Assembly: GCA_913777465.1 (NCBI GenBank) | Contig: CAJYRQ010000013.1 | Span: 17,579-81,578, forward strand | Source: an uncultured Chryseobacterium sp. | GTDB lineage: Bacteria; Bacteroidota; Bacteroidia; Flavobacteriales; Weeksellaceae | Length of the DNA: 64,000 nt | Direction of reading: 5' to 3' | Translations under genes and position numbers: made by a program | The notes under the pieces: generated by a model | Told to the model about the DNA's origin: nothing | Databases searched by the model: none | The model's input: the letters and a program-made list of their open reading frames with translations, nothing else | Shown here: one piece after another, positions 1 through 28,620 of the stretch | Numbering within the stretch: the first letter of the stretch is position 1 | How the letters are laid out: the number at the start of each line of letters is the position of its first letter

Positions 1-1886
1 ACCCCGGCCAGTGGCGGAAGCTTGATACTGATGGATTCCGGGTATCCTTTATATTCTTCTTTGTCACTCCTGACGATATCGGGTTCAACACCGCTTCCTG
101 CATATTTTCCATCATCGGAATTGAAAACAATCTCCCACTGGCTCCCGGTATCGACGCCGACCTTATAATCCAAAACCCTTGGTGTTAAATTCAGGATAAT
201 CATGAAAACGTCTCCTGCCTTTTTTTCTTTTCTCAAATAAATGTATACCGAATTATCCGTATCGTCCGCTTCCACCCATTCAAAACCTTCCGGGCTGAAC
301 TGGTTTTCGTAAAAGGCAGTTTCGTTGCGGTAAAGAAGGTTCAGATCTTTGACCAAAGTCTGCAATCCTTTATGAACTGGAAAATCGAGCAAATGCCAAT
401 CCAGGCTTTTCTTGAAATTCCATTCGCTGGTCTGCCCGAACTCATCGCCCATGAAGAGCAGCTTTGCCCCGGGATGCGTAAACATATAGACATAAAGGGC
501 CCGCAGATTGGCAAATTTCTGCCATTCGTCGCCTTTCATCTTATAGATCAGGCTGGCTTTCCCATGCACCACTTCATCATGCGACAGCGGCATCATGTAA
601 TTTTCATTGTACATGTACATGGATGCGAAAGTCAGTTTGTGATGAAAGAATTTCCTGTTGATGGGGTCTTCCTTAAAATAAGCCAGCGTATCGTGCATCC
701 AGCCCATCATCCATTTCATTCCGAAACCTACGCCGCCCATATGAACAGGTTTGGTAAGCATCGGAAAGTCGGAGCTTTCTTCCGCAATAGTGATGATATT
801 GTCGCCAAATTCTTTATATACAGCGGTATTGAATTCCTGAAGAAACGTTTTGGCTTCCAGGTTCACGTTTCCGCCGTAGATATTGGGTTCCCATTCTCCT
901 TCATTCCGGGAATAATCCAAATGAAGCATAGACGTTACCGCATCTACCCGCAATCCGTCAGCATGATACCGTTCCAGCCAGAACATGGCATTAGAAATCA
1001 GAAAGGATTTCACTTCATTCCTTCCGTAATTGAAAATATAGGATTTCCAGTCGGGATGAAAGCCTTTGCGCGGATCTTCATGCTCATACAGATAAGAACC
1101 GTCGAAACGGTGCAGACCATTGGCATCCCCCGGAAAATGGGAAGGTACCCAGTCTAAAATTACCCCGATGCCATTCCGGTGGAGTTCATCGATCAGGAAC
1201 ATCAGGTCCTGCGGTGAGCCGAAACGTGAAGTTGCAGCATAAAACCCGGTAATCTGGTAGCCCCAGCTTGGATCGTACGGATATTCCATCAGAGGCATAA
1301 ATTCCACATGGGTGAAAGCCATTTCTTTAAGATAGGGAATAAGCTTTGCGGCAAGATCGCGGTAATTCAGGAATTTTTCCGGATGATGCTCATCCCGCAT
1401 CCATGATCCGACATGCATTTCATAGACGGAGACGGGAGCCTTCAGGGTATTTTTCTGCCAGCGGCTGTCCATCCATTCTTTATCTTCCCAATCGTACCAG
1501 GTGGTGGAAACGAGTGATGCCGCCTGGATGTTCTGTTCCCAGCTCAGAGCATACGGATCGCTTTTTTCCAGGATTTCACCGCGGTAGGTCTCAATGGCAT
1601 ACTTATACAACGTTCCCCAGGTAAGACCGGCAATAAATCCTTCCCAGATTCCGGAGCCGTCCCATCGGGGGAATAAGATATGCTCGTTAGGATTCCAGCT
1701 GTTAAAATTTCCGATCACCGAAACTTTTTTGGCATTGGGCGCCCAGACTGAAAAGTAAACGCCCTGTACTCCATCCTTTTCTGCAGAATGTGCCCCGAAT
1801 TTATCGTAGAGCTTATAATGCTTACCTTCTCTGAAAAGATAAATGTCCTGATCTGTAAAAAGAGTGTATGTTTTAACCGAATTCAT
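1..1886 (-). CDS. glgB: 1,4-alpha-glucan branching enzyme, C-terminus cut by window edge
   Basis: Glycogen branching enzyme of family GH13, which makes alpha-1,6 branches in cytoplasmic glycogen. About 628 residues are visible from the ATG at 1886; only the last few are lost at the window edge. It starts with a CBM48-type module (VSVIGNFNSWNP) and has the GH13 signatures: DGLRVDAV with nucleophile Asp315, IAEESSD with acid Glu369, and PLSHDEVVHGK. It is shorter than the E. coli enzyme (728 aa) because the extra N1 domain is absent. No other glycogen gene is in the window. It is divergent from the esterase gene at 2105. The identification is firm. Confidence 0.96.
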   Translation of the reverse strand, partial: MNSVKTYTLFTDQDIYLFREGKHYKLYDKFGAHSAEKDGVQGVYFSVWAPNAKKVSVIGNFNSWNPNEHILFPRWDGSGIWEGFIAGLTWGTLYKYAIETYRGEILEKSDPYALSWEQNIQAASLVSTTWYDWEDKEWMDSRWQKNTLKAPVSVYEMHVGSWMRDEHHPEKFLNYRDLAAKLIPYLKEMAFTHVEFMPLMEYPYDPSWGYQITGFYAATSRFGSPQDLMFLIDELHRNGIGVILDWVPSHFPGDANGLHRFDGSYLYEHEDPRKGFHPDWKSYIFNYGRNEVKSFLISNAMFWLERYHADGLRVDAVTSMLHLDYSRNEGEWEPNIYGGNVNLEAKTFLQEFNTAVYKEFGDNIITIAEESSDFPMLTKPVHMGGVGFGMKWMMGWMHDTLAYFKEDPINRKFFHHKLTFASMYMYNENYMMPLSHDEVVHGKASLIYKMKGDEWQKFANLRALYVYMFTHPGAKLLFMGDEFGQTSEWNFKKSLDWHLLDFPVHKGLQTLVKDLNLLYRNETAFYENQFSPEGFEWVEADDTDNSVYIYLRKEKKAGDVFMIILNLTPRVLDYKVGVDTGSQWEIVFNSDDGKYAGSGVEPDIVRSDKEEYKGYPESISIKLPPLAG

Positions 1887-2000
1887 CACGGTTTTTATTT
1901 TAATTTAATTTCTCTGAAACTACGGAAAAATACCGGCAACCTATATTAATTATGAGTGAATTAATTATTATGTAAAACGGCTTCTATTGATAGTTTCTAT

Positions 2001-2008
2001 CAAATATA
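2001..2008 (-). promoter_or_regulatory. Putative -7 promoter box of glgB
   Basis: Read on the minus strand this is TATATTTG, a full match to the Bacteroidota -7 consensus TAnnTTTG. It lies about 115 bases upstream of the glgB ATG. I see no clear -33 TTTG, so the call is tentative. Confidence 0.4.
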
Positions 2009-2104
2009 AAGTTTTTCAGCCAGTAATACCATGATTCAGGAAATTATTTGCCATAAAAAGATTTTTTATAAATTTATCCTTTTAAATTTTTAGCAGAGAC
2101 ACTG

Positions 2105-3226
2105 ATGAAGTTTGAACTCCATACCGCAGAACAGGATGAAAGGATTATTTACATCACCGGGAATTTCAACCGCTGGAATCCAAGGGACCAGCGTTTCCGG
2201 CTGACGCGGAAAGATATCAACCAATATTTTATAGAAATTGAAGATCATGTGCTGCCGGGTCTTGTGGAATATAAATTCACAAAAGGCGGCTGGGAAAATG
2301 TGGAACTGGACCATCAGGGCAATATTACTCCGAACCGGAAAGTGTTGAAATCTGCAGGAACCGTTTCTGATACCGTAGAAAAATGGAGACTGAACTGGGG
2401 ACCTTTTAAAGCGGAATATTTTCCGATTGCCGAAATAATTTCGGATAAATTTTATATCCCGCAGCTCGACCGTTACCGGAAAGTCTGGGCACTTCTGCCG
2501 TACGATTATTATACTTCAGACAAGAGCTACCCGGTGCTGTACCTCCAGGATGCCCAGAACCTGTTCAACGAAGGCAGCGATTATGGCAACTGGGAAATCG
2601 ATAAAAAGCTTTCGGTTCTTACGGAATATGGCCGCGGTGACGTCATCATTATTGCCATCGAACACGGCAGCGACGACCGGATTAAAGAATATATTTTCGA
2701 TAACGACCATGTTGCCAACGGTTCGGAAGGAAAGAAATACATCCGTTTTATCACCGACACCTTAAAACCTTTTGTAGACCGGAACTACCGTACCAAAAAA
2801 GACCGGGAGAATACGGGGATCGGCGGAAGCTCGCTAGGTGCCCTGATCAGCATTTACAGCGGTTTCCTTTACCCGGAAGTCTATTCCAAGCTTTTGATTT
2901 TTTCACCTTCTCTTTGGGTGGAACCGAACAATAATTTTCCGATGATGAATTTCAAGGTTCCCTTCAGAACCAAAATTTATCTTTACGGCGGCGCGCAGGA
3001 AGGTTCTAAAATGGTAAAAAGAATCCATGCTTTTGAAGAATCGATGAAACGATGGGAAGAAAAACACCTTTTTGACTGCGAGATCAGGATCAGCATCAAT
3101 CCGGAAGGAACACACAGTGAATTCTACTGGTCGCAGGAGTTTCCCAGAGCCATCGAATGGCTGTACTACAACAATATCGAAAACCCTGTAGAAGTAAAAC
3201 CGACGCAGGACAGCATTAAAAATTAA
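2105..3226 (+). CDS. Esterase-like alpha/beta hydrolase with N-terminal CBM48/AMPK-type glycogen-binding-like domain
   Basis: Two-domain protein of 373 aa with no signal peptide. Residues about 1-90 resemble a CBM48/AMPK-beta immunoglobulin-like domain (ITGNFNRWNP), the fold also found at the N-terminus of GlgB next door. Residues about 110-360 form an esterase-D/Fes-type alpha/beta hydrolase with the nucleophile elbow G-S-S-L-G (Ser243) and a likely catalytic His in GTHSEFYW near the C-terminus. The stop lies 4 bases before the next start, so it is co-transcribed with the aminopeptidase at 3231. The substrate is unknown: the N-domain suggests a glycan, while the neighbours suggest an ester or amide intermediate of the amidoligase cluster. 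Confidence 0.82.
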   Translation: MKFELHTAEQDERIIYITGNFNRWNPRDQRFRLTRKDINQYFIEIEDHVLPGLVEYKFTKGGWENVELDHQGNITPNRKVLKSAGTVSDTVEKWRLNWGPFKAEYFPIAEIISDKFYIPQLDRYRKVWALLPYDYYTSDKSYPVLYLQDAQNLFNEGSDYGNWEIDKKLSVLTEYGRGDVIIIAIEHGSDDRIKEYIFDNDHVANGSEGKKYIRFITDTLKPFVDRNYRTKKDRENTGIGGSSLGALISIYSGFLYPEVYSKLLIFSPSLWVEPNNNFPMMNFKVPFRTKIYLYGGAQEGSKMVKRIHAFEESMKRWEEKHLFDCEIRISINPEGTHSEFYWSQEFPRAIEWLYYNNIENPVEVKPTQDSIKN

Positions 3227-3230
3227 CATT

Positions 3231-4646
3231 ATGAAGCTCATCAACAAAAAAAATAAAAACTATACCCAGGTATTCCATCTGTTTACGGAGGAAGAATGGG
3301 CCAAATCCGACAGGAATTTCCATAAAAATATTTCTACATTTTTCAACGGTAAAAAGCATGAGGTCTTTATCCATGTCCATGAAGAAGGAACCGCTTATTT
3401 TATCGGGCTGGGAAAACCGGATCTTCAGAATTTTGAAATTCAGCAGGTAGCCGTGAAATTTTCCCAGGCTTACAAAGAAAAGATACAGGCTGTCCCGACT
3501 TTACTGTTAGCAGACTTTATGAACGAAAGGCAGTTTGAAGAATTTGTAAAAGGCCTGCTGACCGGAACTTACCACTACCCTTTTGAAAAAAAACATGCTT
3601 TCTGGAATCCTAAATTCGAGCTGCACTTTGAAAATTTAAGCCAGAAAAAATTAGACCATATCGGTAAAAAGACCGAAGCCATCAGCAACGGACAGACCGC
3701 CTGCCAGGAGTGGCTGAACAAACCGGCTAATCTTAAAAAACCGGATATTTTCAGCCTTTATTTAAAAAATTTAGCTAAAAAATACGATCTCAAATACACG
3801 GTTTTCAACAGAAAAAAATGCGAAGAACTCGGTCTGGGAGCTTACCTTTCCGTTAACCAGGGAAGTGCATACGATGCTGCTTTTACCATCCTGGAGTACC
3901 GGACTGCCGTTAAAAATGCAAAAACCTTCGGACTGGTCGGAAAATGCGTGCTCTTCGATACCGGCGGAATCTCCCTGAAAAATCCGGACAATATGCACTA
4001 TATGAAATCGGATATGGGCGGTGCGACGGCTGTTTTGGGAACACTGATTTACGCTGCCGAAATGCAGCTTCCGGTGAATATCACAGCAGTGCTGCCCATT
4101 ACCGACAATGCCATCTCCGAGAAAGCTTTTCTTCCGAGCGACGTGATTACCGCTTATAACGGAAAAACCATCGAAGTCCTGAATACCGACGCGGAAGGGC
4201 GGATGATCATGGCAGACGGACTTTCTTACCTGGCTAAAAATTTTAAAACCGATTTCCTGATCGATCTGGCGACTTTAACGGGAAGCTCGGTGCGGATGTT
4301 CGGCGATACCTGCGGGGCCCTATTTTCAAATAACGAAGAACTGAAAAATCTTCTGCTGAAAACCGGCGATAAAACGAACCAACGACTCTGGAGTTTACCG
4401 CTGTGGGATATCTGGAAAGACGATATCCGGTCTGATGTTGCCGACCTGAAAAATATCTCCATGAAGCCGGTCGGAGACTGTATCGTAGCAGCAAAATTCC
4501 TGGAGCAGTTTATAGAAAACCATCCGAAGTGGGCCCATCTGGATATTGCCGGAGTCGCCTTCGGAAATGTAGGCTATGCGAAAGAAAAAGCGGCCACCGG
4601 ATTTGGGGTACAGCTGCTGGCAGATTTAATCGAAAATTATCACTAA
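3231..4646 (+). CDS. M17 leucyl aminopeptidase family protein
   Basis: Cytosolic dinuclear-metal aminopeptidase of family M17 (471 aa), which removes N-terminal residues from peptides. The family signature NTDAEGR is present at residues 318-324, and the upstream ligand region FDTGGISLK is intact. The N-terminal about 150 residues are the usual divergent regulatory domain. It starts 4 bases after the esterase and heads into a cluster of ATP-grasp ligases. A peptidase here could trim or recycle an amide-linked product, but ordinary peptide turnover explains it equally well. Confidence 0.93.
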   Translation: MKLINKKNKNYTQVFHLFTEEEWAKSDRNFHKNISTFFNGKKHEVFIHVHEEGTAYFIGLGKPDLQNFEIQQVAVKFSQAYKEKIQAVPTLLLADFMNERQFEEFVKGLLTGTYHYPFEKKHAFWNPKFELHFENLSQKKLDHIGKKTEAISNGQTACQEWLNKPANLKKPDIFSLYLKNLAKKYDLKYTVFNRKKCEELGLGAYLSVNQGSAYDAAFTILEYRTAVKNAKTFGLVGKCVLFDTGGISLKNPDNMHYMKSDMGGATAVLGTLIYAAEMQLPVNITAVLPITDNAISEKAFLPSDVITAYNGKTIEVLNTDAEGRMIMADGLSYLAKNFKTDFLIDLATLTGSSVRMFGDTCGALFSNNEELKNLLLKTGDKTNQRLWSLPLWDIWKDDIRSDVADLKNISMKPVGDCIVAAKFLEQFIENHPKWAHLDIAGVAFGNVGYAKEKAATGFGVQLLADLIENYH

Positions 4647-4748
4647 AAATTAGTTTATTACAAAAATTCTCTGTATCATTGATATGGTTTTTCAAAAGTG
4701 CATGATATTTTTATTTTTAACACTGAATAATTAATAAAAAATCATTTT

Positions 4749-4756
4749 TATTTTTG
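4749..4756 (+). promoter_or_regulatory. Putative promoter of the first ATP-grasp gene
   Basis: TATTTTTG matches TAnnTTTG and lies 30 bases before the ATG at 4786. It implies that transcription of the amidoligase genes can start here, separately from the esterase-aminopeptidase pair. Confidence 0.5.
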
Positions 4757-4785
4757 AAAAGCCATTAAAAAACTAAAAACATTGT

Positions 4786-5997
4786 ATGGAGGAGAAAACT
4801 ATAGTGTGTATTTCATGCTATTACAAGGGTTATGATTTCATGGATGAAATGAAAAAACTCGGTAATAAAGTAATTCTGGTAACATCTGAGAATCTTAAGG
4901 AGAAGAACTGGCCCTGGCATGCCATCGACGAGGTATTTTACATGCCCGAAGTAAAACCCTCCGTCTGGAATCTCGACCATCTGATTCAGGGATTTTCTCA
5001 TCTGATGCAGACCCGGAAAGTACATGCTGTAATTGCTCTTGATGATTATGATGTAGAAAAGGCAGCCCTGATCCGTGAAACCTTCAGGATTCCCGGGATG
5101 GGGCAAACGACCCACCGCTATTTCAGGGATAAGCTGGCTATGCGCCGGAAAGCAAAAGATTCCGGCATCAATGTTCCCGAGTTTACCGCTGTTTTCAACA
5201 ATGATGAGGTCAATGCTTTTGCCGATACCGTTCCTGCGCCCTGGGTTCTGAAACCACGGTCGGAAGCTTCTGCTTCGGGAATTAAAAAGCTGACTTCCAA
5301 AGATGAGCTTTGGGAAGCCCTGAATAACCTTGGCGAAGAGCGCCACCTGTTCCTACTGGAAAGCTTTAAACCCGGTGATGTCTATCACGTGGACAGTCTC
5401 ACCTTTAATAAAGAAATCGTTTTTACTTCCGCTTCAAAATATCTTGCTCCACCGATGCAGGTTTCCCACGAAGGCGGCGTTTTCAGAACCAAAACCCTGG
5501 GCCGGTATTCGGATGAATTCCGGGAGCTGGAAAAAGCCAACGCCAAAGTCCTTTCCAATTTCGGACTGATGAACGGCGCGACCCACACCGAATTTATCAG
5601 AAGCCGGGAAAACGGCAAATACTATTTTCTCGAAACATCATCACGGGTTGGCGGTGCACACATCCCCGACCTGGTGGAGGCGTCAAGCAGCATCAACATC
5701 TGGCGCGAATGGGCGAAAATTGAAGATGCCTTATTGCGGGGAAAAGATTATCAGGTTTCGAAGCCGACGGGATATTATGCCGGTCTGATCATCGCTTTAA
5801 TCAAAGACCAGCAACCTGATTACAATGCATTTGAATGTGAAGAAGCCGTGAAATTCCTGCCGATCGATTATCATGCAGGAATCGTCTATAAATCCAAGGA
5901 TGCGGACGTCATTCAGGAAAAACTGGACAAAGCCGCTGAAAAAATCCAGGCTGAAATGCTGAATATCCTTCCTCCGAAGGATAAACCCACCTCATAA
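4786..5997 (+). CDS. ATP-grasp carboxylate-amine/thiol ligase (first of cluster)
   Basis: ATP-grasp enzyme of 403 aa. It activates a carboxylate as an acyl-phosphate and joins it to an amine. The pre-grasp domain covers about 1-110. The nucleotide-binding segment has WVLKPRSEASASGI with Lys156, and the metal-binding strand has THTEFI followed by FLETSSRVGGAH with Glu283, so the active site looks complete. The C-terminus (about 310-403) resembles the lid of biotin-carboxylase or peptide-ligase type ATP-grasps. It is first in a run of amide-forming genes. The substrate cannot be read from sequence; a dipeptide or small-metabolite ligase is the best guess. Confidence 0.88.
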   Translation: MEEKTIVCISCYYKGYDFMDEMKKLGNKVILVTSENLKEKNWPWHAIDEVFYMPEVKPSVWNLDHLIQGFSHLMQTRKVHAVIALDDYDVEKAALIRETFRIPGMGQTTHRYFRDKLAMRRKAKDSGINVPEFTAVFNNDEVNAFADTVPAPWVLKPRSEASASGIKKLTSKDELWEALNNLGEERHLFLLESFKPGDVYHVDSLTFNKEIVFTSASKYLAPPMQVSHEGGVFRTKTLGRYSDEFRELEKANAKVLSNFGLMNGATHTEFIRSRENGKYYFLETSSRVGGAHIPDLVEASSSINIWREWAKIEDALLRGKDYQVSKPTGYYAGLIIALIKDQQPDYNAFECEEAVKFLPIDYHAGIVYKSKDADVIQEKLDKAAEKIQAEMLNILPPKDKPTS

Positions 5998-6012
5998 CTT
6001 GTAAAATATACT

Positions 6013-6043
6013 ACGCCGGAAACAAGAAAACCGGTGTTATTTT
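6013..6043 (+). terminator. Weak terminator-like hairpin
   Basis: ACGCCGG and CCGGTGT pair across an 11-base loop (one G-T pair), followed by TATTTT. It may partly separate the first ATP-grasp gene from the esterase at 6106. Confidence 0.35.
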
Positions 6044-6105
6044 AAGTTTTGCCATCCTTTAAATAAAATCAGAGGTTTGAAACCTTTAACTCCAAATAAC
6101 AAAAA

Positions 6106-6819
6106 ATGCCGAAAATAGAACATACCGATTACTATTCCCATATCTTAGGAACCAGCCTGAAAGTTGAGGTCACGGGCCATTACGGCTATCCGATCATTAT
6201 GTTCCCAACTTCACAGGGATTCTATACCCAAAACCATGATTTCCAGCTGAACGGAAGCATCAACTGGTTTGTGGAACAGGGAAAGGTAAAGCTTTACAAC
6301 ATCCAGACGATCGACAGCCAAAGCTTTTACGACGAAAGCATTCCGCCGCAACAGCGGATCAGGAATTACGAAAAATACGCACAGTTCCTGATTAAAGAAT
6401 TCGTGCCCTATATTCAGAAACTCCACAATACGCACCGCGTTGCCGTTGCCGGAGCGAGTTTCGGAGGATATCATGCCGCTAATTTCGCCTTCCGGTTTCC
6501 GGATGTCGTATCGCACCTGTTCTGTCTTTCAGGCGCATTCAGCATCAGGAATTTTATGGACGGCTACTCTGATGACCTGGTATACTTCAATTGTCCGAGG
6601 GAATTTGTAAAAAATGATGAAGCCTGGAAATACAAGCACATGCATATTGTCCTGAGCACTTCCGACCAGGATATCTGCAGGGATAAAAATGTGGAAATGG
6701 CAGAAATCCTCACGTTAAAAGGAATTGATTTCTGGTACGATGAAAAGAAATGGATCAACCACGACTGGCCGCTCTGGAGAATGGTGTTTCCGACTTTTAT
6801 CGGCGCTTTTTTTTCTTAA
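6106..6819 (+). CDS. Alpha/beta hydrolase-fold esterase within the amidoligase cluster
   Basis: Single-domain alpha/beta hydrolase (237 aa) of the esterase-D/enterochelin-esterase type with no signal peptide. It carries the nucleophile elbow GASFGG in AVAGASFGGYHAANF. A likely catalytic Asp lies in STSDQDIC and a catalytic His in NHDWPLW near the C-terminus, so a full Ser-Asp-His triad is present. It sits between two ATP-grasp genes, which suggests hydrolysis or transfer of an acyl or peptidyl intermediate made by them. It is a second, CBM-less relative of the esterase at 2105. Family call is good; substrate is unknown. Confidence 0.86.
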   Translation: MPKIEHTDYYSHILGTSLKVEVTGHYGYPIIMFPTSQGFYTQNHDFQLNGSINWFVEQGKVKLYNIQTIDSQSFYDESIPPQQRIRNYEKYAQFLIKEFVPYIQKLHNTHRVAVAGASFGGYHAANFAFRFPDVVSHLFCLSGAFSIRNFMDGYSDDLVYFNCPREFVKNDEAWKYKHMHIVLSTSDQDICRDKNVEMAEILTLKGIDFWYDEKKWINHDWPLWRMVFPTFIGAFFS

Positions 6820-6839
6820 ACTGAATGAACTGTAAGCAT

Positions 6840-6910
6840 AAGAATCTTGACGCAAAGTCCGCAAAGTTTTTTACTACTAACTGTTTTTAAGTTCGCCAAG
6901 GCGTTCTACT
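6840..6910. repeat. Degenerate intergenic repeat (GCAAAG...GCCAAGGCG type)
   Basis: The spacer before the ATP-grasp gene at 7007 contains GACGCAAAGTCCGCAAAG and then AAGTTCGCCAAGGCG. This looks like a decayed copy of the short GC-biased repeats scattered in flavobacterial spacers. No promoter of the TAnnTTTG type is visible in it. Confidence 0.35.
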
Positions 6911-7006
6911 CAGCTGAGATCAAAGATCAAATTATAAGATCATTCAAATCAGTATCAAAATATATTAATAATCCAATACACAATAAAAACATTAAAAAAA
7001 TACATT

Positions 7007-7960
7007 ATGGCTAAAAAAGTAGGAATTTTGTTCGGGATGGAAGATACGTTTCCCTGGGCATTTATTGATAAGGTAAATGAACTGGGCAAAGGAGAAATCA
7101 TTGCCGAACCGGTGAACATCGATAAGCTTGAACAGGGAGCCGATTACGGATATGCCGTGATTATCGACCGGATTTCCCAGGATGTCCCTTTCTACCGGGC
7201 TTACCTGAAAAATGCAGCGCTGAACGGAACGTATGTAGTCAACAACCCTTTCTGGTGGAGTGCCGACGAAAAGTTTTTCAACAATGCTTTAATGAGCAAG
7301 CTTGGGATCCCGCTTCCGAAAACCGTCCTGCTTCCTTCTCATGAAAGACCGACCAACACATCGGAGACTTCTTTCAGGAACCTGCAATTTCCTCACGACT
7401 GGGATTATATCTTCGATTACGTAGGATTTCCGGCCTATATGAAACCTCACGACGGCGGCGGCTGGAGAAATGTGTACCGCGTGAACAGCCCGGAAGATCT
7501 TTGGGCCAAGCTGGGCGAAACGGAACAGCTGGTGATGATGGTGCAGGAAGAAATTGTTTTCAACGATTATTACCGTGTGTATTGCCTGGGCCAGAAATAT
7601 GTTCACATCATGCCTTATGAGCCGAGAAATGCTCCTCATCTGAGATACGAGACAACCCATAAAACCGAGGGTAAAGAACTTAAAAAGATCTTGAAAACCA
7701 TTCATGATTATACACTTAAAATGAACAAGGCATTGGGCTACGATTTCAACACGGTGGAGTTCGCCGTTCGCGACGGAATCCCTTATGCCATCGATTTCTG
7801 CAACCCGGCTCCCGATGCCGACCGGAATTCGGTGGGCGAAGAAAATTTTGCCTGGATTGTGGAGCATGCTGCCAGATTAGCCGTAGAAAAAGCAAAAGAA
7901 TACGTTCCCGGAAAACCGAACATTTCGTGGGGAACCTTTGTGAAAGATTCTGTAAAATAA
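7007..7960 (+). CDS. ATP-grasp ligase (second of cluster)
   Basis: RimK-like ATP-grasp protein of 317 aa. The nucleotide-binding lysine region is PAYMKPHDGGGW (Lys146 with the glycine-rich loop), and the metal-binding strand is TVEFAVRDGIPYAIDFCNPAPDAD around residues 248-272. Asp263 replaces the usual acidic-Asn pair pattern in DFCNPAP, an unusual but still acidic variant. It is followed after 25 bases by the GCS2-type ligase, so the two are clearly co-transcribed and may act in sequence. The product is unknown. RimK-like glutamate ligation or a dipeptide ligase are the alternatives. Confidence 0.87.
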   Translation: MAKKVGILFGMEDTFPWAFIDKVNELGKGEIIAEPVNIDKLEQGADYGYAVIIDRISQDVPFYRAYLKNAALNGTYVVNNPFWWSADEKFFNNALMSKLGIPLPKTVLLPSHERPTNTSETSFRNLQFPHDWDYIFDYVGFPAYMKPHDGGGWRNVYRVNSPEDLWAKLGETEQLVMMVQEEIVFNDYYRVYCLGQKYVHIMPYEPRNAPHLRYETTHKTEGKELKKILKTIHDYTLKMNKALGYDFNTVEFAVRDGIPYAIDFCNPAPDADRNSVGEENFAWIVEHAARLAVEKAKEYVPGKPNISWGTFVKDSVK

Positions 7961-7985
7961 GAACCTCTAAAAAACACGAAAAAAA

Positions 7986-9104
7986 ATGCATCAGTTTACC
8001 ATCGGAATCGAAGAAGAATATCAGATCATTGATGTTGAGAGCAGGGACCTGATTTCTCATGTTTCGAAAATCATCGAAGGCGGAAAAGCGGTTTTAAGTG
8101 AAAATTTAAAGCACGAAATGCACGAATCCATGATCGAGATGGAAACGGGCATCTGCCAGAATATCCAGGAGGCCAAAACGGAACTCACGAACCTGAGAAG
8201 ACATCTTATCAAAACCGCTCACGAACAGGGACTCCGGGTTTCCGGCGGCGGGACTCATCCTTTCTCCAACTGGGAACACAACACCATTACCAACGGTGAA
8301 CGTTACAATAAAATCGTAGATGATATGGGGGATGTGGCGCGTGGCAATCTGATTTTCGGGCTTCACGTACACATCGGCATCCCAAACCGTGAGGAAGGCG
8401 TAAGAATCCAGAATGTGATGCGGTATTTTCTGCCGCACGTATATGCTCTGTCTACCAATTCCCCTTTCTGGATCGGAAGGAATACCGGCTTCAAATCGTA
8501 CCGTCAGGAAATTTTCGTGAAGTTCCCGAGAACCGGGATCCCGAGCTTCTTTAATTCGCTGGCGGAATTCGACAGCTATGTGGATCTGCTGGTAAAGACG
8601 GGAACCATAGACAACGCCAAGAAAATATGGTGGGACCTCCGGGTTCACCCTTTCTATCCTACCATTGAGTTCAGGATCTGCGATATGCCTTTGCGGATCG
8701 ATGAAACCGTCTGTCTGGCGGCCATCATGCAGTCTTTGGTTGCCAAAATATACAAACTGCACCAGCAAAACCTGAGCTTCAGAAGCTACCGCAGGCTGTT
8801 GCTGAATGAAAATAAATGGAGGGCCTCCAAAAGCGGCATCGAAGCCCATCTGATTGATTTCGGTAAGGAAGAATCGGTTCCCTATCCTGATTTGTTAAAA
8901 GAGCTACTGGAATTTATCGACGATGTCGTGGATGACCTGGGATGCCGGAAAGAAGTGGAATATGCATGGACAATCCTGGAAAACGGAACCGGTGCAGACC
9001 GTCAACTGAAGGTATTCCACGAGACCAGCGACCTTACCAAAGTAGTGGATTATATGATCTCCGAAACGGAATACGGAATTACCCACAGCGAAACGGCTTT
9101 ATAA
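7986..9104 (+). CDS. GCS2/YbdK-family carboxylate-amine ligase
   Basis: Member (372 aa) of the glutamate-cysteine ligase type 2 superfamily (COG2170, YbdK-like), glutamine-synthetase fold. These enzymes couple a carboxylate, often gamma-glutamyl, to an amine using ATP. Signatures seen: IGIEEEY near the N-terminus (metal-binding glutamates), GLHVHIG in the middle, and EFRICDMPLRIDE late. No gshB-type partner in the usual glutathione arrangement is present. Instead it lies between ATP-grasp and amidotransferase genes, as in predicted peptide-metabolite clusters. It is probably not a true gamma-glutamylcysteine synthetase. Confidence 0.9.
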   Translation: MHQFTIGIEEEYQIIDVESRDLISHVSKIIEGGKAVLSENLKHEMHESMIEMETGICQNIQEAKTELTNLRRHLIKTAHEQGLRVSGGGTHPFSNWEHNTITNGERYNKIVDDMGDVARGNLIFGLHVHIGIPNREEGVRIQNVMRYFLPHVYALSTNSPFWIGRNTGFKSYRQEIFVKFPRTGIPSFFNSLAEFDSYVDLLVKTGTIDNAKKIWWDLRVHPFYPTIEFRICDMPLRIDETVCLAAIMQSLVAKIYKLHQQNLSFRSYRRLLLNENKWRASKSGIEAHLIDFGKEESVPYPDLLKELLEFIDDVVDDLGCRKEVEYAWTILENGTGADRQLKVFHETSDLTKVVDYMISETEYGITHSETAL

Positions 9105-9112
9105 TATTTCGG

Positions 9113-9120
9113 TAACTTTG
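9113..9120 (+). promoter_or_regulatory. Putative promoter of the glutamine amidotransferase gene
   Basis: TAACTTTG is a full TAnnTTTG match, followed by CAAAAATTAGG. It overlaps a possible TTG start at 9118, so that codon cannot be the translated start; the ATG at 9136, 16 bases downstream, fits. Confidence 0.55.
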
Positions 9121-9135
9121 CAAAAATTAGGTTGT

Positions 9136-9969
9136 ATGAAGGATATACGGATGGCTTTGCTCGACATGAACAACAATCAGGTGAATCAGGGATTTAAAAA
9201 TATTAAAGAAATTTCCGAAGCCTTTCAGAATAGTACGGAAGAACATGTATATATTGAAACATTTGATGTAAGGTTTAAGAATGAAATGCCGGCGGTAGAG
9301 GATTTTGACATTTTCATTTCCTCAGGCGGGCCGGGCGATCCGCACCGGGAAGGCCTGGAATGGGAAGACCGGTTTGCAGAATTTCTGGATGGCATTTTTA
9401 AGTATAATCAATCGAATGACCGAAAAAAATACCTGTTCCTGATCTGCCATTCTTTTCAGTTGGCCAGCATCCACTGGAAACTCGGAACGATCAACAGAAG
9501 AAAATCCTACTCTTTCGGGGTAATGCCGATTCATAAAACCAAAGAAGGTGAACAGGAATTTCTGCTTAAAAATTTACCCGATCCTTTTTATGGGGTAGAT
9601 TCCAGAGCATTCCAGTTTATCGAACCCGATTATGCCCGTTTTGAAGAACTGGGGATGCATATCGTGGCCATAGAGAAATTCCGTCCGCACATCAATCTGG
9701 AAAGAGCGGTGATGGCGGTGCGTTTTTCCGAAGAGATTTTCGGGACGCAGTTTCATCCGGAAGCCAATCCGGCCGGGATGATTGAAAACCTGAAAGTTGA
9801 AAAAAACAAAGCGGCGATGATCGAAAATTTCGGAATGGAAAAATATTTGGAAACCATCGACCGGATTAACGATGAAGATAAAATTGTTTTAACGCAGGCC
9901 CAGATTCTTCCGAGGTTCCTGGAGCATGCGAAAAAGAATATCCTGATTCAGGCCCAAGCAACCATTTAA
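9136..9969 (+). CDS. Class I glutamine amidotransferase-like protein
   Basis: GATase class I domain (277 aa from the ATG at 9136). It hydrolyses glutamine and passes ammonia to a partner. The oxyanion region SSGGPGDP is present, the nucleophile is Cys104 in LICHSFQLA, and His207 and Glu209 in TQFHPEANP complete the triad, so it should be active. The longer reading from a TTG at 9118 is rejected because that codon lies in a promoter box. No synthetase domain is fused, so the acceptor is probably one of the neighbouring ATP-grasp or GCS2 ligases, giving an amidated product. GMP synthase subunits are the nearest familiar relatives. Confidence 0.88.
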   Translation: MKDIRMALLDMNNNQVNQGFKNIKEISEAFQNSTEEHVYIETFDVRFKNEMPAVEDFDIFISSGGPGDPHREGLEWEDRFAEFLDGIFKYNQSNDRKKYLFLICHSFQLASIHWKLGTINRRKSYSFGVMPIHKTKEGEQEFLLKNLPDPFYGVDSRAFQFIEPDYARFEELGMHIVAIEKFRPHINLERAVMAVRFSEEIFGTQFHPEANPAGMIENLKVEKNKAAMIENFGMEKYLETIDRINDEDKIVLTQAQILPRFLEHAKKNILIQAQATI

Positions 9970-9991
9970 TAAAAACAATAGAAAAATATCT

Positions 9992-10021
9992 AAAAATCGG
10001 GCATCAAATGTCCGATTTTTT
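9992..10021 (+). terminator. Terminator after the amidotransferase gene
   Basis: AAAAATCGG and CCGATTTTT pair across an 11-base loop and end in a T run. It separates the amidotransferase from the gene at 10043. Confidence 0.7.
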
Positions 10022-10042
10022 AAATCACAAAAAGCAAAGAAT

Positions 10043-11227
10043 ATGATCCCAAAATACAGAAAGCAGTTCAATCAGGAATTTTCACCGGAAAAGTATGCTC
10101 AACTAAAGGAAATCCTGAGACAAAAAAGCGGTATTGAGCCCGCATTCCGGATATCCGAAAGCCCACTGTTCCTGAACAAAGCATTTGAAGCCAAGCTTCT
10201 CGGTGCCAGCGAAAGCATCATCGACCAGATCAAGGCTTTGCCAGCGGAAACTTTACAGAAGGCTATCCCGGAAAACTGCCGCGTCCCGAACGATACGGAC
10301 CAGCCGCATTTTTTCACGATCGATTTCGGGATCTGTAAAAGTGACAACGGCGAAATAGAACCTCAGCTGATCGAACTTCAGGCCTTCCCTTCCCTTTATG
10401 CTTTCCAGAGGATTTTCGAAGATACTTTTTGTGAAGTCTATCCTTTTCTTTCGGAAATCAGGAATAAAATGCCGGATGAGACTTTTAAAAATTATTTAAA
10501 AGAACTGATTGTAGGCAACGAAAATCCCGAAAACGTCGTTCTTCTTGAAATTTATCCTGAAAAGCAGAAAACGGCGATTGATTTTATCTATACGGAACAA
10601 CTGTTGGGCATTAAAACAGTTTGCCTGACCAAAATAAAAAAAGAGGGTAAGCAATTGTTTTATGAAAACAACGGTAGCCTAACGGAGATCAAAAGAATTT
10701 ACAACCGCGTTATTTTCGATGAGCTTGACCGGATCCCGGATCTGAAGACGGAGTTCGATTTCCGTGAAGACGTTGACGTTACCTGGGTAACGCATCCGAA
10801 CTGGTTTTTTAAGATTTCCAAATTCCTTCTGCCGCTTTTACAACATCAGTTCGTGCCGAAAAGTTATTTCCTGCATGAATTCCCGGAAGATGAAAACCTT
10901 GAGAATTTTGTATTAAAACCCCTGTTCTCCTTTGCCGGCAGCGGCGTGAATTTAAATCCAACCCGGGAAATCACTGATGCTATTGAGGACAAGGAAAACT
11001 ACATTCTGCAAAAAAAGGTACAGTATGAGCCGGTTTTCGAAGATATTCACGGCGATTTTTCCAAAGCAGAAATCAGATTATTGTATATTTGGCGCGAAAA
11101 AGACGAACGACCAATCCTTCTTGAAAATCTGGGAAGAATGACCAAAGCCGCCATGGTGAATGTCGACTTCAATAAGAAAGATACAATCTGGATCGGAAGC
11201 TCGAATGCCTTTTTTGCGGAAGAATAA
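10043..11227 (+). CDS. Divergent ATP-grasp-like protein (third of cluster)
   Basis: Protein of 394 aa that I cannot place in a named family. The C-terminal half looks ATP-grasp-like: FVLKPLFSFAGSGVN (about 288-302, resembling the lysine and glycine-rich loop), YILQKKVQYEPVF (about 316-328, hinge strand) and EIRLLYIW (late metal-binding strand region). The N-terminal about 140 residues contain FFTIDFGICKSDNGEIEPQLIELQAFPS, in which the acidic strand appears early, as in circularly permuted ATP-grasps. It sits behind a terminator but in the same direction as the cluster. A third ligase is likely; the assignment is inference from motifs. Confidence 0.6.
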   Translation: MIPKYRKQFNQEFSPEKYAQLKEILRQKSGIEPAFRISESPLFLNKAFEAKLLGASESIIDQIKALPAETLQKAIPENCRVPNDTDQPHFFTIDFGICKSDNGEIEPQLIELQAFPSLYAFQRIFEDTFCEVYPFLSEIRNKMPDETFKNYLKELIVGNENPENVVLLEIYPEKQKTAIDFIYTEQLLGIKTVCLTKIKKEGKQLFYENNGSLTEIKRIYNRVIFDELDRIPDLKTEFDFREDVDVTWVTHPNWFFKISKFLLPLLQHQFVPKSYFLHEFPEDENLENFVLKPLFSFAGSGVNLNPTREITDAIEDKENYILQKKVQYEPVFEDIHGDFSKAEIRLLYIWREKDERPILLENLGRMTKAAMVNVDFNKKDTIWIGSSNAFFAEE

Positions 11228-11245
11228 TTTTAAAACTGATATACA

Positions 11246-11704
11246 ATGGAAGAAAGCTCATCTTTTCAGGAATTTGAAACGAAAGAAAATTTTACAAGAA
11301 GAAGAAATTTGTTGCCTCTGTGGATCAAAATATTTTTATGGTTCTTCTTAATAGGAGGTTTATTTGCGGCTGTTTTTTTAATCATCGGGCCGTTTCTGAA
11401 TAAGATCGACCTGTCGCTCTATGGGATTACCGCCACTCATTCTTATACTTTGCCGGGAATCATTACCACCTTACTGCTCATATATAAGGGAATTGTAGCC
11501 TACGGTTTGTGGTTTGAACAGAAATGGGCCGTTCAGGCCGCTATTATTGATGCTATCATCGGTATTGCCGTCTGCATCATCATGATGGTGGTTATTCCAT
11601 TTACCGCTCCGAATGTCAGCTTTACGATACGGCTGGAGTTGATCCCACTCTATTTTTATATGGTGAAAATGCAGAAAATAAAATCAGCCTGGGAACATCT
11701 TTAA
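11246..11704 (+). CDS. Small membrane protein, function unknown
   Basis: Protein of 152 aa with a charged N-terminal tail (about 22 residues) and about three to four hydrophobic segments (about 24-48, 68-88, 95-118 and possibly 126-142). It starts 18 bases after the ATP-grasp-like gene, so it probably shares its transcript. No motif is recognised. It could be a membrane partner or exporter accessory for the cluster product, but that rests only on position. Confidence 0.7.
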   Translation: MEESSSFQEFETKENFTRRRNLLPLWIKIFLWFFLIGGLFAAVFLIIGPFLNKIDLSLYGITATHSYTLPGIITTLLLIYKGIVAYGLWFEQKWAVQAAIIDAIIGIAVCIIMMVVIPFTAPNVSFTIRLELIPLYFYMVKMQKIKSAWEHL

Positions 11705-11709
11705 ATATT

Positions 11710-11738
11710 AAACCTTCGGAAACCCGGAGGTTTTAGTT
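11710..11738 (+). terminator. Terminator at the end of the amidoligase cluster
   Basis: AAACCTTCGG pairs with CCGGAGGTTT (one wobble) across a 4-base loop, followed by TAGTTTT. It closes the + strand run and faces the convergent gene ending at 11750. Confidence 0.65.
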
Positions 11739-11749
11739 TTATTACGAAA

Positions 11750-12499
11750 TCAGGATGCCCAATACCTGCTTAAAACATAAAACCTGCTTTCGTACTCAAT
11801 AACAAAACAGTTATCATACAATGATTCAAGCTTTTGGACGGAAGCAATTTCTTTCACGAAAAGAGCACAGATTAAATCTGCAAGAGGCTTGGCATAATCA
11901 TCAGACCGGTTCATTGACCGCTCTCCTATTCCTAATGCTTTTCCTATAAATTTCAGAAGTTCATCTTTATAGTGAATGACCGGAATGGGTATAGGTTCGT
12001 TTATCTTCTTTTCAAGCAGATCATCCAGCGAATCTCTTTTATAAAATTCCAGGCCTTCCCGGTAAGTATCATCCCAAAAGTGTTCGTACACATACTGATC
12101 GATAAATAACAAAGCACCTTCGATACGGCTTAGTTTATTATCTTCATTAAGCATACTTCTTTCATAATCTATAGAAACCGGATACTTTTTATCCGCGAAA
12201 TAGCTAATATTTTCATAAGGATTATTTATTTCGAGACAGTTTCTGAGATCCTTCCTTGCATGATTCATTTCAGCTTCCAGATAAAATTCTCTTCCTGAAT
12301 TCAAATCATCTCTTCTTATGTAACCGTCGGTATTGTTATCAATGATATCAAAATGTTTCGGCATCGCATAGCCGACAGCAAGATTATCATCAGCAATGAG
12401 GTAAAACTTTGCTTTATTCTCATGAAAACCAAATCCGATGACCAGATATTCGTCCAGATTTTTATAATTTGACAAATCTTTTTTAAACCGTACCTTCAT
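11750..12499 (-). CDS. Hypothetical protein
   Basis: Soluble protein of 249 aa without signal peptide or membrane segment. The N-terminal about 90 residues are beta-rich (VRFKKDLSNYKNLDEYLVIG), then a helical, acidic middle and C-terminal half. I recognise no domain. It lies between the terminators of the amidoligase run and of cphA, on the minus strand, so it appears to be transcribed alone. The intact 249-codon frame and normal codon use support a real gene. Confidence 0.7.
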   Translation of the reverse strand: MKVRFKKDLSNYKNLDEYLVIGFGFHENKAKFYLIADDNLAVGYAMPKHFDIIDNNTDGYIRRDDLNSGREFYLEAEMNHARKDLRNCLEINNPYENISYFADKKYPVSIDYERSMLNEDNKLSRIEGALLFIDQYVYEHFWDDTYREGLEFYKRDSLDDLLEKKINEPIPIPVIHYKDELLKFIGKALGIGERSMNRSDDYAKPLADLICALFVKEIASVQKLESLYDNCFVIEYESRFYVLSRYWAS

Positions 12500-12520
12500 C
12501 TTTCCGGGCTCAATGATATT

Positions 12521-12557
12521 AAAATTTCGGCGGCATCTGAGATGCCGCCGAAATTTT
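12521..12557 (-). terminator. Terminator of cphA
   Basis: Perfect 17-bp inverted repeat with a 3-base loop (AAAATTTCGGCGGCATC and its complement), ending in a T run on the minus strand, just after the cphA stop at 12576. It is symmetric, so it could stop either strand. Confidence 0.88.
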
Positions 12558-12575
12558 GTTTTATATTAGTTTTAT

Positions 12576-15206
12576 TTACTGAACCTTATCGTCCTCCATC
12601 AGTTCCCTGGCCTGATATTCCTGAACCAGATCGATGGCGTTGGAAATCACATCGCTCAGGGCGGTAATGAAGGTCCCTTCTTCAGCCATTCCCATGGCAT
12701 GTTTCAGGGCTTCAATTTCCTTGGGAATGATTTCGTAGCTCACATCCCTCCCGGAAGACTGCATGCCTTCGATAATCAGTCCGTTGATCTCGTCTTCGGT
12801 TCTGCCGCGAAGGTGCTTTTCGTTGCGGATAATGATGTGGTCGAACATTCTTCCGGCAATCTTCCCGCATTCCCGGATATCGCCGTCCCGTCGGTCGCCA
12901 ACGCCTGAAATGATGCCTATTTTCTTGGTGGATTCCACATTTTTCAGGTAATCTTCAATCGCTTCATAGCCGGCAGGATTGTGGGCAAAATCAATCAGTA
13001 CTTTAAAACTTTTGAATTTAAATACATTCAGCCGTCCCGGAGTAAGCTGTGCGCTTGGGATGAAAGTGCGAAGGGAATTTGAAATATCTTCAATTCCGAA
13101 GCCGTGAAGATAAGAGGCCAGACTGGCAGCCAACACATTTTCGATCATGAATTTGGCCTTTCCTTCCATGGTAATCGGGAAGTCTTTGGCTTTTCCGATC
13201 CTGATTTTCCAGTCGCCTTTTTTAATGGTTACAAAACCTTCTTCATACACGCAGGTAATTCTTCCTTCTTTCGCAAATTTCTTAATGTGCGGATTATTCT
13301 CGTCCATACTGAAGATCGCGATGTTGGAATGCAGATCGTTGATGATCCTCATGGAATATTCGTCATCGGCGTTCATCACGCTCCATCCGTTTTTCTTTAC
13401 GCTGTCGAGAACCACCCTTTTTACACGGGTAAGATCTTTCAGATTGTGGATGTCATTCAATCCCAAATGATCTTCCTTAATATTGGTTAAGACCCCGATA
13501 TCACACTGGGAGAATCCTAATCCTGAGCGTAAAATCCCGCCTCTTGCCGTTTCGAGGACTGCAAATTCCACGGTAGGGTCTTTCAGGATAAATTCTGCTG
13601 AAAGAGGGCCTGTGGTATCGCCTTTCGTCAGCATCGTATTCTGAATATAAATACCGTCTGAAGTTGTAAAGCCTACGCGGTATCCATTGCTTTTAACGAT
13701 ATGGGAGATTAATCTCGTGGTTGTTGTCTTCCCGTTTGTTCCCGTCACCGCAATAATCGGAATGGTAAAAGGTTTTCCCTGAGGGTAAAGCATATCCACC
13801 ACCGGGGCAGCTACGTTTCTCGGCAGCCCTTCGCTCGGAGCCAGGTGCATCCTGAATCCCGGGGCCGCATTCACTTCAATGATGGCACCGCCGCTTTCTT
13901 TCAGGGGCTGGGTAAGATTTTCGGCCATAATATCGATTCCGCAGACATCAAGTCCGATAATTTTTGAAATCCTTTCCGCCATGGTAATGTTCTCCGGATG
14001 CACCATATCGGTAACATCAATCGAAGTTCCTCCGGTAGATAGATTGGCCGTTGATTTCAGATAAACCACCTCTCCTCTCTGGGGAACCGTATCAAGGGTA
14101 TAATGAAGTTTTTCCAGCAGTTCAGTAGTATCTTTATCGATCAGGATTTCAGTTAAAACATTTTCGTGGCCATAGCCTCTTCTCGGATCTGTATTTTCTT
14201 TGTCAATCAGTTGCTGAAGATTCAGCTCACCATCACCTACAACGTGGGCAGGAACCCTTCTTGCGGCCGCCACCATCTTGTTGTTGATAACCAGAACTCT
14301 GAAATCGTAGCCGGTAATGTATTTTTCGATAATAACTCTACCGGAATATTTCTGGGCGTGCTCCAGACCGGTTTTTGCAGCTTCCCAATCGTTTACATTA
14401 ATTGATGAACCTTTTCCGTGATTGCCATCCAGGGGCTTAATTACCACCGGATATCCTATTTTTCTTACAACGGCATCCAAACCCTCTTCATCGGTGATCA
14501 GGTCCCCGATCGGAACAGGAATTGCCGCGTCGTGCAGCATTCTTTTTGTTAACTCTTTATTACATGCAATGTCTACGGCAATGGAACTGGTGTTTCCGGT
14601 AATGGTTGCCTGGAACCGCTGCTGGTTTACGCCATACCCCAGCTGAACCAGGGAATTCGTTCCCAGACGGATCCACGGAATTCTCCTGGAAACCGCTTCT
14701 TCCACGATACTTCCGGTAGAAGGGCCAAGGCGCACCCGTTCCCTGATTTCTTTTAGCATTTTGATACAGGCATTCAGGTCATATTCTTTCCCTTCAATCA
14801 ATGCTTCGGCAATGGCTACAGACTGTTCCGCAGCATAAATTCCGGCATTTTCTTCGATATAATTGAATACAACATTATACACACCCGGCGTTCTTGTTTC
14901 ACGGGTTCTCCCGAAACCGACGTCCATTCCCGCAAGCGTCTGAATTTCCAGTGCGATATGCTCGATCACGTGGCCCATCCAGGTTCCCGTTTCAATACGG
15001 TGGAAAAATCCGCCTTCGGTACCTTCGGAACAACGGTGGGACCACAGGGAAGGAATCAGTTTTTCGATTCTTTCTCTGAAGCCGTCGATTTTATTGGTAG
15101 GAAAATTTTCCATTTCTTCGAGATCCAACCTCATCTGTATCAGCTTCTTCCTTCTGATACTCCAAATATTCGGGCCGCGCAATGCCTGTATCTTCTCAAT
15201 TTTCAT
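12576..15206 (-). CDS. cphA: Cyanophycin synthetase
   Basis: Makes cyanophycin, a poly-L-aspartate chain with an arginine on each side chain, using ATP. At 876 aa it has the normal CphA1 length. The start MKIEKIQALRGPNIWSI is typical of the family. The N-terminal domain covers about 1-160, and the ATP-grasp domain about 210-470 with KPLDGNHGKG (257-266) and EVNAAPG (444-450). A Mur-ligase-like domain follows from about 485 with the P-loop GTNGKTT (489-495). Both catalytic halves look intact, so this is a CphA1-type enzyme, not the half-dead CphA2 type. It is divergent from a cyanophycinase gene. Product length and lysine content cannot be predicted. Confidence 0.95.
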   Translation of the reverse strand: MKIEKIQALRGPNIWSIRRKKLIQMRLDLEEMENFPTNKIDGFRERIEKLIPSLWSHRCSEGTEGGFFHRIETGTWMGHVIEHIALEIQTLAGMDVGFGRTRETRTPGVYNVVFNYIEENAGIYAAEQSVAIAEALIEGKEYDLNACIKMLKEIRERVRLGPSTGSIVEEAVSRRIPWIRLGTNSLVQLGYGVNQQRFQATITGNTSSIAVDIACNKELTKRMLHDAAIPVPIGDLITDEEGLDAVVRKIGYPVVIKPLDGNHGKGSSINVNDWEAAKTGLEHAQKYSGRVIIEKYITGYDFRVLVINNKMVAAARRVPAHVVGDGELNLQQLIDKENTDPRRGYGHENVLTEILIDKDTTELLEKLHYTLDTVPQRGEVVYLKSTANLSTGGTSIDVTDMVHPENITMAERISKIIGLDVCGIDIMAENLTQPLKESGGAIIEVNAAPGFRMHLAPSEGLPRNVAAPVVDMLYPQGKPFTIPIIAVTGTNGKTTTTRLISHIVKSNGYRVGFTTSDGIYIQNTMLTKGDTTGPLSAEFILKDPTVEFAVLETARGGILRSGLGFSQCDIGVLTNIKEDHLGLNDIHNLKDLTRVKRVVLDSVKKNGWSVMNADDEYSMRIINDLHSNIAIFSMDENNPHIKKFAKEGRITCVYEEGFVTIKKGDWKIRIGKAKDFPITMEGKAKFMIENVLAASLASYLHGFGIEDISNSLRTFIPSAQLTPGRLNVFKFKSFKVLIDFAHNPAGYEAIEDYLKNVESTKKIGIISGVGDRRDGDIRECGKIAGRMFDHIIIRNEKHLRGRTEDEINGLIIEGMQSSGRDVSYEIIPKEIEALKHAMGMAEEGTFITALSDVISNAIDLVQEYQARELMEDDKVQ

Positions 15207-15251
15207 AGTCTATTTGCATTTTTAATAGTTAACAATAACTGCATTTAGTAT

Positions 15252-15259
15252 CAAAGATA
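15252..15259 (-). promoter_or_regulatory. Putative cphA promoter (-7 box)
   Basis: On the minus strand this reads TATCTTTG, a full TAnnTTTG match, about 46 bases before the cphA start. It shares the 197-bp divergent spacer with the cyanophycinase promoter. Confidence 0.5.
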
Positions 15260-15389
15260 ATGCAAAACCCCAAACGAAACTATACCACAATTAAACATTT
15301 GTAAAAAATAAATGAAAATCATCAATAAATATTAAATCTCCATGATTAATTTCAATATCAACGAATTTCTCTACCTATTAATAATTTTT

Positions 15390-15397
15390 TAACTTTG
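15390..15397 (+). promoter_or_regulatory. Cyanophycinase promoter, close to the start codon
   Basis: TAACTTTG matches TAnnTTTG and ends 6 bases before the ATG at 15404. Transcription would begin at or next to the start codon, so the mRNA may be leaderless. The box also contains a TTG at 15395 that could be mistaken for a start. Confidence 0.5.
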
Positions 15398-15403
15398 CAG
15401 CCT

Positions 15404-16294: not shown

Positions 16295-16379
16295 TTATAA
16301 GTGATGAATAATGATTGATTTTCAATCGAAAATTATTAATACCATCACCTGCAAATTAAAACCATCAAATACAAAATAT

Positions 16380-28416: not shown

Positions 28417-28444
28417 TCCGGAAATAGTTCTTTAACATCCTTCA

Positions 28445-28620
28445 TCAAACGGAAAAGGTTTTACGTAAAGTAGATTAATAGGGAATCGTGTGAGAATCAC
28501 GAGCTGTCGCGCAACTGTAAGTAATACCCCAAAGGTTTTTGTCCGAGTAGATCCACTGTGCAAACGGGAAGGATGACAGAAACTGTTACAAGTCAGGAGA
28601 CCTGCCTGTTCCGGATTGAC
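28445..28620 (+). ncRNA. Cobalamin riboswitch
   Basis: Adenosylcobalamin-type leader. Recognised by GGGAATCGTGTGAGAATCAC (28481 on), GAGCTGTCGCGCAACTGTAA and the B12 box AGTCAGGAGACCTGCC (28591-28606). Such elements turn metE off when vitamin B12 is present. The exact ends are estimated. Confidence 0.94.

Follow-up and report, generated by a model that had tools for sequence, protein, structure and literature searches.

A conserved Bacteroidota gene cluster for three ligases and candidate hydrolases that may direct synthesis of a short amide-linked small molecule

The window analysed here is a stretch of 64,000 nucleotides of contig CAJYRQ010000013.1 from an uncultured Chryseobacterium sp. 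It includes nine open reading frames, designated A to I, which are all on the forward strand at positions 2105-11704. Five of these, D-E-F-G-H (6106-11227), form a unit that recurs across many families of Bacteroidota and codes for an esterase-type hydrolase (D), three ligases (E, F and H) and an enzyme with the class I glutamine amidotransferase fold (G). With a probability that we put at roughly 0.55, D-E-F-G-H constitutes one nonribosomal peptide synthetase (NRPS)-independent pathway to a short amide-linked small molecule. On the best reading, the product would be a short, possibly gamma-glutamyl, peptide or peptide-amine built by successive ligations.

Co-occurrence, linkage and conservation of the core genes

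Profile searches of 395 Bacteroidota genomes revealed E, F and H together in 105 genomes, and none of the three in 257. Partial sets were found in the other 33, which carry E only (23), E and H (5), F and H (4), or E and F (1). The totals for single genes were 134 genomes for E, 114 for H, 110 for F at orthologue grade, and 86 for G. E was detected in 135 genomes, and in 90 of the 170 genera, before one weak match in G108 (5.4e-4, a frame of 1170 amino acids) was dropped; second weak E matches of G090 and G106 were also removed from the list. F matches were obtained in 129 genomes, of which 7 at 471-481 bits and 12 at 292-381 bits were set aside. Among 59 relatives of the source genome, 35 were positive for E, and 34 of the 36 genomes of the same genus (the window's own included) carry it.

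When two genes are taken as linked if they share a strand and are no more than 6 kb apart, 30 of the 105 full carriers have no linked pair among the three ligase genes. Hence, the coupling of the three ligases exceeds mere neighbourhood and extends to genomes in which the genes are unlinked. "Unlinked" refers to this 6 kb criterion; G082, G286 and G156, for example, keep E and F 9-26 kb apart on one contig. Eight families hold both carriers and non-carriers (160 genomes sampled, 80 of each), and the pattern is thus not due to one old split. Since most genomes have E, F and H either as a full set or not at all, and often side by side with hydrolase genes, it is probable that they make one small molecule.

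Genomes with E only fall into two groups. G is present in 16 of the 23, and in six of the seven such genomes that were inspected a different ligase-like protein of 450-480 amino acids, F5, is encoded between E and G. R134-x-D136 and E148-x-N150 are invariant in five F5 sequences. The other seven genomes include only distant E relatives (31-40% identity; loci L061-L067 in G215, G443, G341, G423, G411, G065 and G142), and no F, G or H passed the thresholds applied; these relatives possibly have another function.

Gene neighbourhoods were inspected at 40 loci around E from many families, 19 further loci, 40 loci with unlinked copies of E, G or H or with other clusters, and 80 named loci. The named loci are the best 80 E matches listed, which all carry Bacteroidota names, the nearest being Chryseobacterium; Flavobacterium, Dyadobacter and Mucilaginibacter are also among the genera. 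Because they are best matches, close relatives are over-represented. In the 66 named loci with at least 4.5 kb of downstream sequence, F is found after E on the same strand in 64, and G and H in 63 each, with all three genes lying within 5.5 kb after E in 62. Where at least 1.5 kb of upstream sequence is present (75 named loci), D is ahead of E in 72. With F-G-H colinear after E and D before E at these frequencies, the clustering is not due to chance. The genes had been described as belonging together, and a search of relatives for loss of the neighbourhood found it retained. Matches in 72,556 plasmid records, which would have pointed to plasmid spread, were found neither for E (expectation value ≤1e-20) nor for H (≤1e-10).

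The preliminary description went further and assigned all nine genes to one pathway. One pathway is a likely reading for D-E-F-G-H, but is not supported for the block as a whole, as A, B and C are accessory and I is located beside H only in some close relatives (some Chryseobacterium). A-B-C lies upstream of D in Weeksellaceae, and among the 68 named loci whose upstream sequence reaches 3.5 kb or more, 21 have C upstream of the core. In other loci C, B and A are convergent behind H (L088, L222 and L230), C alone or C with B is found behind H (L211, L215 and L217), C is behind H (L076), or C follows the core on the same strand (L078). Given these several independent arrangements, C is tied to the core. 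Another PF00756 esterase, designated Z, is encoded divergently ahead of D or E in 38 of these 68 loci. In the single case tested, Z of L236 (Hymenobacter, 5520-7076, reverse strand) extends into a C-terminal DinB_2/bacillithiol-transferase-like domain; frames about as long are found at this place in L232 and L087.

Other neighbours were seen in single groups. Two genomes of family f39 have a gene for histidine ammonia-lyase after E (L148:5150-6682 (+) and L071:7404-8906 (-)), and in these two genomes and in family f42 an Amidohydro_3 gene precedes H (L127, L120 and L121). A single frame of 867 amino acids in L129 (3137-5737 (+)) joins a sodium:solute symporter to H and represents either a real fusion or an assembly effect; G326 and G444, from the same genus, have long frames over H too.

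Ratios of nonsynonymous to synonymous substitution (dN/dS) were calculated against the relative L098, for which dS is 0.67-1.15; most other pairs were saturated at synonymous sites. The ratio was lowest for F (0.006) and E (0.014), followed by D (0.029) and C (0.031), with 0.040 for both B and H and higher values for A (0.056), G (0.073) and I (0.133). F is thus nearly frozen in sequence, and the low ratios throughout point to purifying selection on A to I and indicate a functional core whose conservation is unusual among biosynthetic clusters. The catalytic residues of D (G116-x-S118-x-G120, D189 and H219) are invariant in 21 aligned rows.

Predicted functions of the ligases and of G

E has no Pfam match and scores below the NCBIfam cut-offs for rimK_fam (34.3 bits, 1.5e-8, against 143.4) and LysX. 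A structure model from 31 sequences (mean predicted local distance difference test score, pLDDT, 89.8) gave 500 matches in the PDB at an expectation value ≤0.001, and the 50 listed are ATP-grasp ligases. The best Foldseek matches were Ddl, LysX/ArgX and RimK (1e-14 to 1e-12), and graspetide ligases were also matched. The model therefore supports an ATP-grasp fold for E, which resembles RimK, LysX/ArgX and D-Ala-D-Ala ligases in fold and differs from them in falling below the family cut-offs.

F exceeds the cut-off for PRK13515 carboxylate-amine ligases (Table 1). Compared with known structures, the F profile matches YbdK at 1.7e-64 and, weakly, plant glutamate-cysteine ligase at 2.4e-5. F is thus similar to YbdK, but is tied to E and H. 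Stand-alone YbdK is not known to have partners such as these.

H had been taken for a generic third ATP-grasp protein. Its model (21 sequences, pLDDT 90.4) instead points to the glutathione synthetase type of fold, as all 29 PDB matches at an expectation value ≤0.001 belong to the glutathione synthetase/GspS/YgiC clan, with 9-18% identity and template modelling scores of 0.45-0.63 by query length. They comprise glutathione and homoglutathione synthetases, synthetase-like effectors, glutathionylspermidine synthetases, YgiC and YjfC. YgiC, labelled a peptide-spermidine ligase in the E. coli K-12 record, is nearest by sequence (profile expectation value 0.012; HHalign probability 63). H residues D94, E111, Q113 and K292 are invariant in 21/21 rows, and H aligns with the YgiC-like loops W-x-x-P-x-W ... 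SK-x-x-LP and VLKPLFSFAG. The R-x-D/E-x-N motif is known in GspS. A passage of PMC12568646 gives R-x-D and E-x-N as the active-site motif of a related enzyme. Thus, H shares its fold and the YgiC-like loops with Gss, YgiC and YjfC, but differs in scoring below the Pfam GSP_synth cut-off (18.2 against 29.3 bits), in missing the Arg of R-x-D and in having Gln for the Asn of E-x-N. Spermidine ligase activity of YgiC/YjfC is attributed to Pederick et al. 2023 in the same passage of PMC12568646, as well as in annotation, and an excerpt of PMC12506659, citing Sui, describes YgiC as having no Gss activity.

As judged by the profile of F and the model of H, these two are fold counterparts of the enzyme pair by which plants make glutathione, and E joins them as a third ligase; the likeness is one of resemblance rather than membership. 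F belongs to the GCS2 clan, in which its profile finds the plant ligase, and H has the (homo)glutathione synthetase fold. The system differs from that of plants and other eukaryotes in the low identity of H, in the coupling of E, and in the presence of bshC in all 80 carriers sampled.

The folds closest to E also allow a different explanation, in which the ligases modify a protein or carrier-bound substrate, no free small molecule is made, and the hydrolases remove the tag. RimK, which adds a tail to a ribosomal protein, LysX/ArgX, which uses the carrier LysW, and graspetide ligases are precedents; F changes at the slow pace of a housekeeping gene; and some H-type members, such as YgiC, act on peptides according to the K-12 annotation and the citation in part of PMC12568646. 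However, no conserved small open frame was noticed beside the core among frames of at least 80-90 amino acids in the loci read, and two further stand-alone ligases with several esterases suit small-molecule work better. A graspetide or other ribosomally synthesized and post-translationally modified peptide (RiPP) precursor gene was not noticed beside the ligase among frames of at least 70-90 amino acids. Modification of a protein or carrier is considered unlikely.

G was first described as a free class I amidotransferase with an intact Cys104-His207-Glu209 triad that supplies ammonia. The triad is confirmed as invariant in 22 sequences, and the match to Pfam GATase is above the cut-off. If G is a true glutaminase feeding ammonia to one of the ligases, the product would end in a primary amide, and the occurrence of 84 of the 86 G-positive genomes among those with E would accord with this. 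The role as ammonia supplier is weakened by the neighbourhoods of H. Among 129 occurrences of H, which are not independent loci, the order is F-G-H in 95, E-G-H in 5 and F-M29-H in 6, while F is next to H in 5, F and H are separated by an unassigned gap in 2, and H has no linked partner in 16. The six clusters with an M29 metallopeptidase in the G slot represent five families, and G was not found in any of the six genomes. In the five genomes with F next to H, G is located elsewhere in three and was not found in two. Furthermore, 41 of the 105 genomes with E, F and H have no G, and homoserine O-succinyltransferase is among the profile relatives of G; hence, glutaminase activity does not follow from the fold by itself. 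A glutaminase role for G is accordingly judged quite improbable.

The simplest account of an exchange between a GATase-fold protein and a metallopeptidase is that either one cleaves an amide bond, and G is more readily read from its sequence and context as a putative amide-bond hydrolase than as an ammonia supplier. Plant GGP1, a gamma-glutamyl peptidase, offers a parallel. By sequence, G was not assigned as a PuuD-type gamma-glutamyl hydrolase (HHalign probability 20).

Layout of the locus and adjacent genes

The gene content given in the preliminary description is borne out, with families assigned from Pfam (curated cut-offs), NCBIfam (its own cut-offs) or structure models (Table 1). B scores below the NCBIfam equivalog cut-offs despite its Peptidase_M17 match. 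The start of G is taken as ATG 9136, not TTG 9118, and residue numbers follow this ATG. With this start, the E-F, F-G, G-H and H-I gaps are 25, 31, 73 and 18 bases, whereas the upstream gaps B-C, C-D and D-E are wider at 139, 108 and 187 bases. Terminator-like sites are not more frequent than in shuffled sequence across the region scanned (9 against a shuffled mean of 13.1). No Rfam match was obtained within 1500-12700 at an expectation value ≤0.1.

Table 1. Features of the window: genes A to I and adjacent elements.
Feature	Position	Strand	Assignment	Status	Basis
A	2105-3226	+	Esterase-type serine hydrolase, 373 aa	Accessory	PF00756 at residues 120-349, 82.6 bits (cut-off 22)
B	3231-4646	+	M17 leucyl-aminopeptidase-type metallopeptidase, 471 aa	Accessory	Peptidase_M17, 349 bits (cut-off 25)
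C	4786-5997	+	ATP-grasp_4-type ligase, 403 aa	Accessory	Pfam, 28.9 bits (cut-off 27)
D	6106-6819	+	Esterase-type serine hydrolase, 237 aa	Core	PF00756, 39.7 bits (cut-off 22)
E	7007-7960	+	Predicted ATP-grasp ligase, RimK/LysX/Ddl type, 317 aa	Core	Structure model and Foldseek
F	7986-9104	+	GCS2/YbdK-type carboxylate-amine ligase, 372 aa	Core	PRK13515, 536.3 bits (cut-off 371); Pfam GCS2 above cut-off
G	9136-9969	+	Free-standing class I glutamine-amidotransferase-fold enzyme, 277 aa	Core	Pfam GATase, 34.6 bits (cut-off 22.8)
H	10043-11227	+	Predicted ligase, glutathione synthetase/GspS/YgiC-type fold, 394 aa	Core	Structure model and PDB matches
I	11246-11704	+	Small protein, hydrophobic by eye, 152 aa	Outside core	No Pfam match
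Terminator-like hairpin and T-rich tail	11710-11733	+	Directly 3' of I		Consensus match
J	11750-12499	-	Open frame	Beside cluster only in close relatives	No Pfam match
K, L, M	12576-17222	K -, L +, M +	K, cphA; L, cyanophycinase; M, Asparaginase_2, isoaspartyl peptidase-like	Cyanophycin set
Cobalamin riboswitch	28439-28623	+			94.3 bits

The position of K, L and M next to the cluster raises the question of whether it is part of cyanophycin metabolism. K and L pass the equivalog cut-offs, and two Hymenobacter loci (L232 and L236) as well as L087 have L and M close to the core. In most core loci, however, K was not found nearby, and the cyanophycin synthetase N-terminal domain is present in 16 of 80 carriers of the E, F and H set compared with 8 of 80 non-carriers. 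The two systems are not coupled, and a role of the cluster in cyanophycin metabolism is thus largely refuted and very improbable. M itself, though below the PRK10226 cut-off, is by sequence a candidate for an isoaspartyl dipeptidase of Bacteroidota, enzymes that are described as still undiscovered in a section of PMC10206079.

Proposed pathway and its relation to known systems

In the proposed D-E-F-G-H pathway, F would activate a carboxylate (that at the gamma position of glutamate is the likeliest) and join it to an amine to form the first amide. H and E would each add one more unit, and the unit added by H is plausibly a terminal amine or amino acid, by analogy with YgiC and spermidine. G, or M29 in its place, may then cut an amide bond of the intermediate or product, and the esterases D, A and Z with peptidase B may trim or recycle the product. 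This order of steps, the substrates and the gamma-glutamyl linkage are proposals that would fit the coupling of E, F and H, the intact catalytic motifs of D and G, the modelled folds and the G/M29 exchange, and a small product appears preferable to a modified protein. Spermidine as the amine used by H was considered, and the best match in the genome to nspC, for carboxynorspermidine decarboxylase, is far below the cut-off (51.6 against 409 bits). The genome includes a deoxyhypusine-synthase-type gene above the cut-off (145 bits), and bacterial members of this family are able to make homospermidine.

Several observations weigh against a single pathway of this kind. No substrate, product or mutant is known for the cluster, and a literature search found no paper describing its product, in agreement with the earlier statement that none is known for this arrangement. 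E belongs to no specific family. In none of the 21 rows of H does an Arg stand two positions ahead of D94, and E111-x-Q113 replaces E-x-N; the chemistry of H may therefore differ. In five clusters F adjoins H with neither G nor M29 between them. The triple is not complete everywhere, as five genomes have E and H without F, and a lower-scoring F relative is present in 11 of the 257 genomes counted as having none of the three. The co-occurrence counts take kinship into account only through the eight mixed families, and the distance correlations of 0.93-0.97 from 21 loci come without an unrelated-gene control.

A more specific form of the D-E-F-G-H pathway is suggested by the likeness to glutathione synthesis. 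The product of E, F and H would be a phylum-specific, glutathione-like gamma-glutamyl peptide or peptide-amine serving as a core cofactor beside bacillithiol. G or M29 would act as the peptidase for it, and hydrolysis of its acyl-thiols or esters would fall to the PF00756 esterases. This form is tentative and rather unlikely. Replacement of bacillithiol by the product is rejected, given that bshC is present in 80/80 carriers and 75/80 non-carriers; an extra thiol beside bacillithiol is possible.

The cluster is related to known NRPS-independent amidoligase pathways, of which it is a variant. Iyer and co-workers reportedly predicted in 2009 that similar combinations of genes for GCS2, ATP-grasp, glutamine amidotransferase and peptidase proteins make peptides. 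The same logic of stand-alone ligases and few building blocks is seen in E-64 (an ATP-grasp enzyme and an amide bond synthetase), dapdiamides and cystargolides, as described in a portion of PMC12568646. These are narrow secondary-metabolite clusters, whereas the E-F-H cluster spans many Bacteroidota families and is strongly conserved.

The interest of the system lies in how tightly the three ligases are coupled and how well they are conserved, and three ligases, one candidate hydrolase and several genetically tractable hosts make a sharp target. If the unit is one pathway, functions would be gained for E, for F in this setting, for H, and for G, which has so far been annotated only as an amidotransferase. 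About a quarter of the sampled Bacteroidota genomes (105/395) would then make the same amide-linked compound, and the selection acting on the pathway would match that on basic metabolism in strictness.

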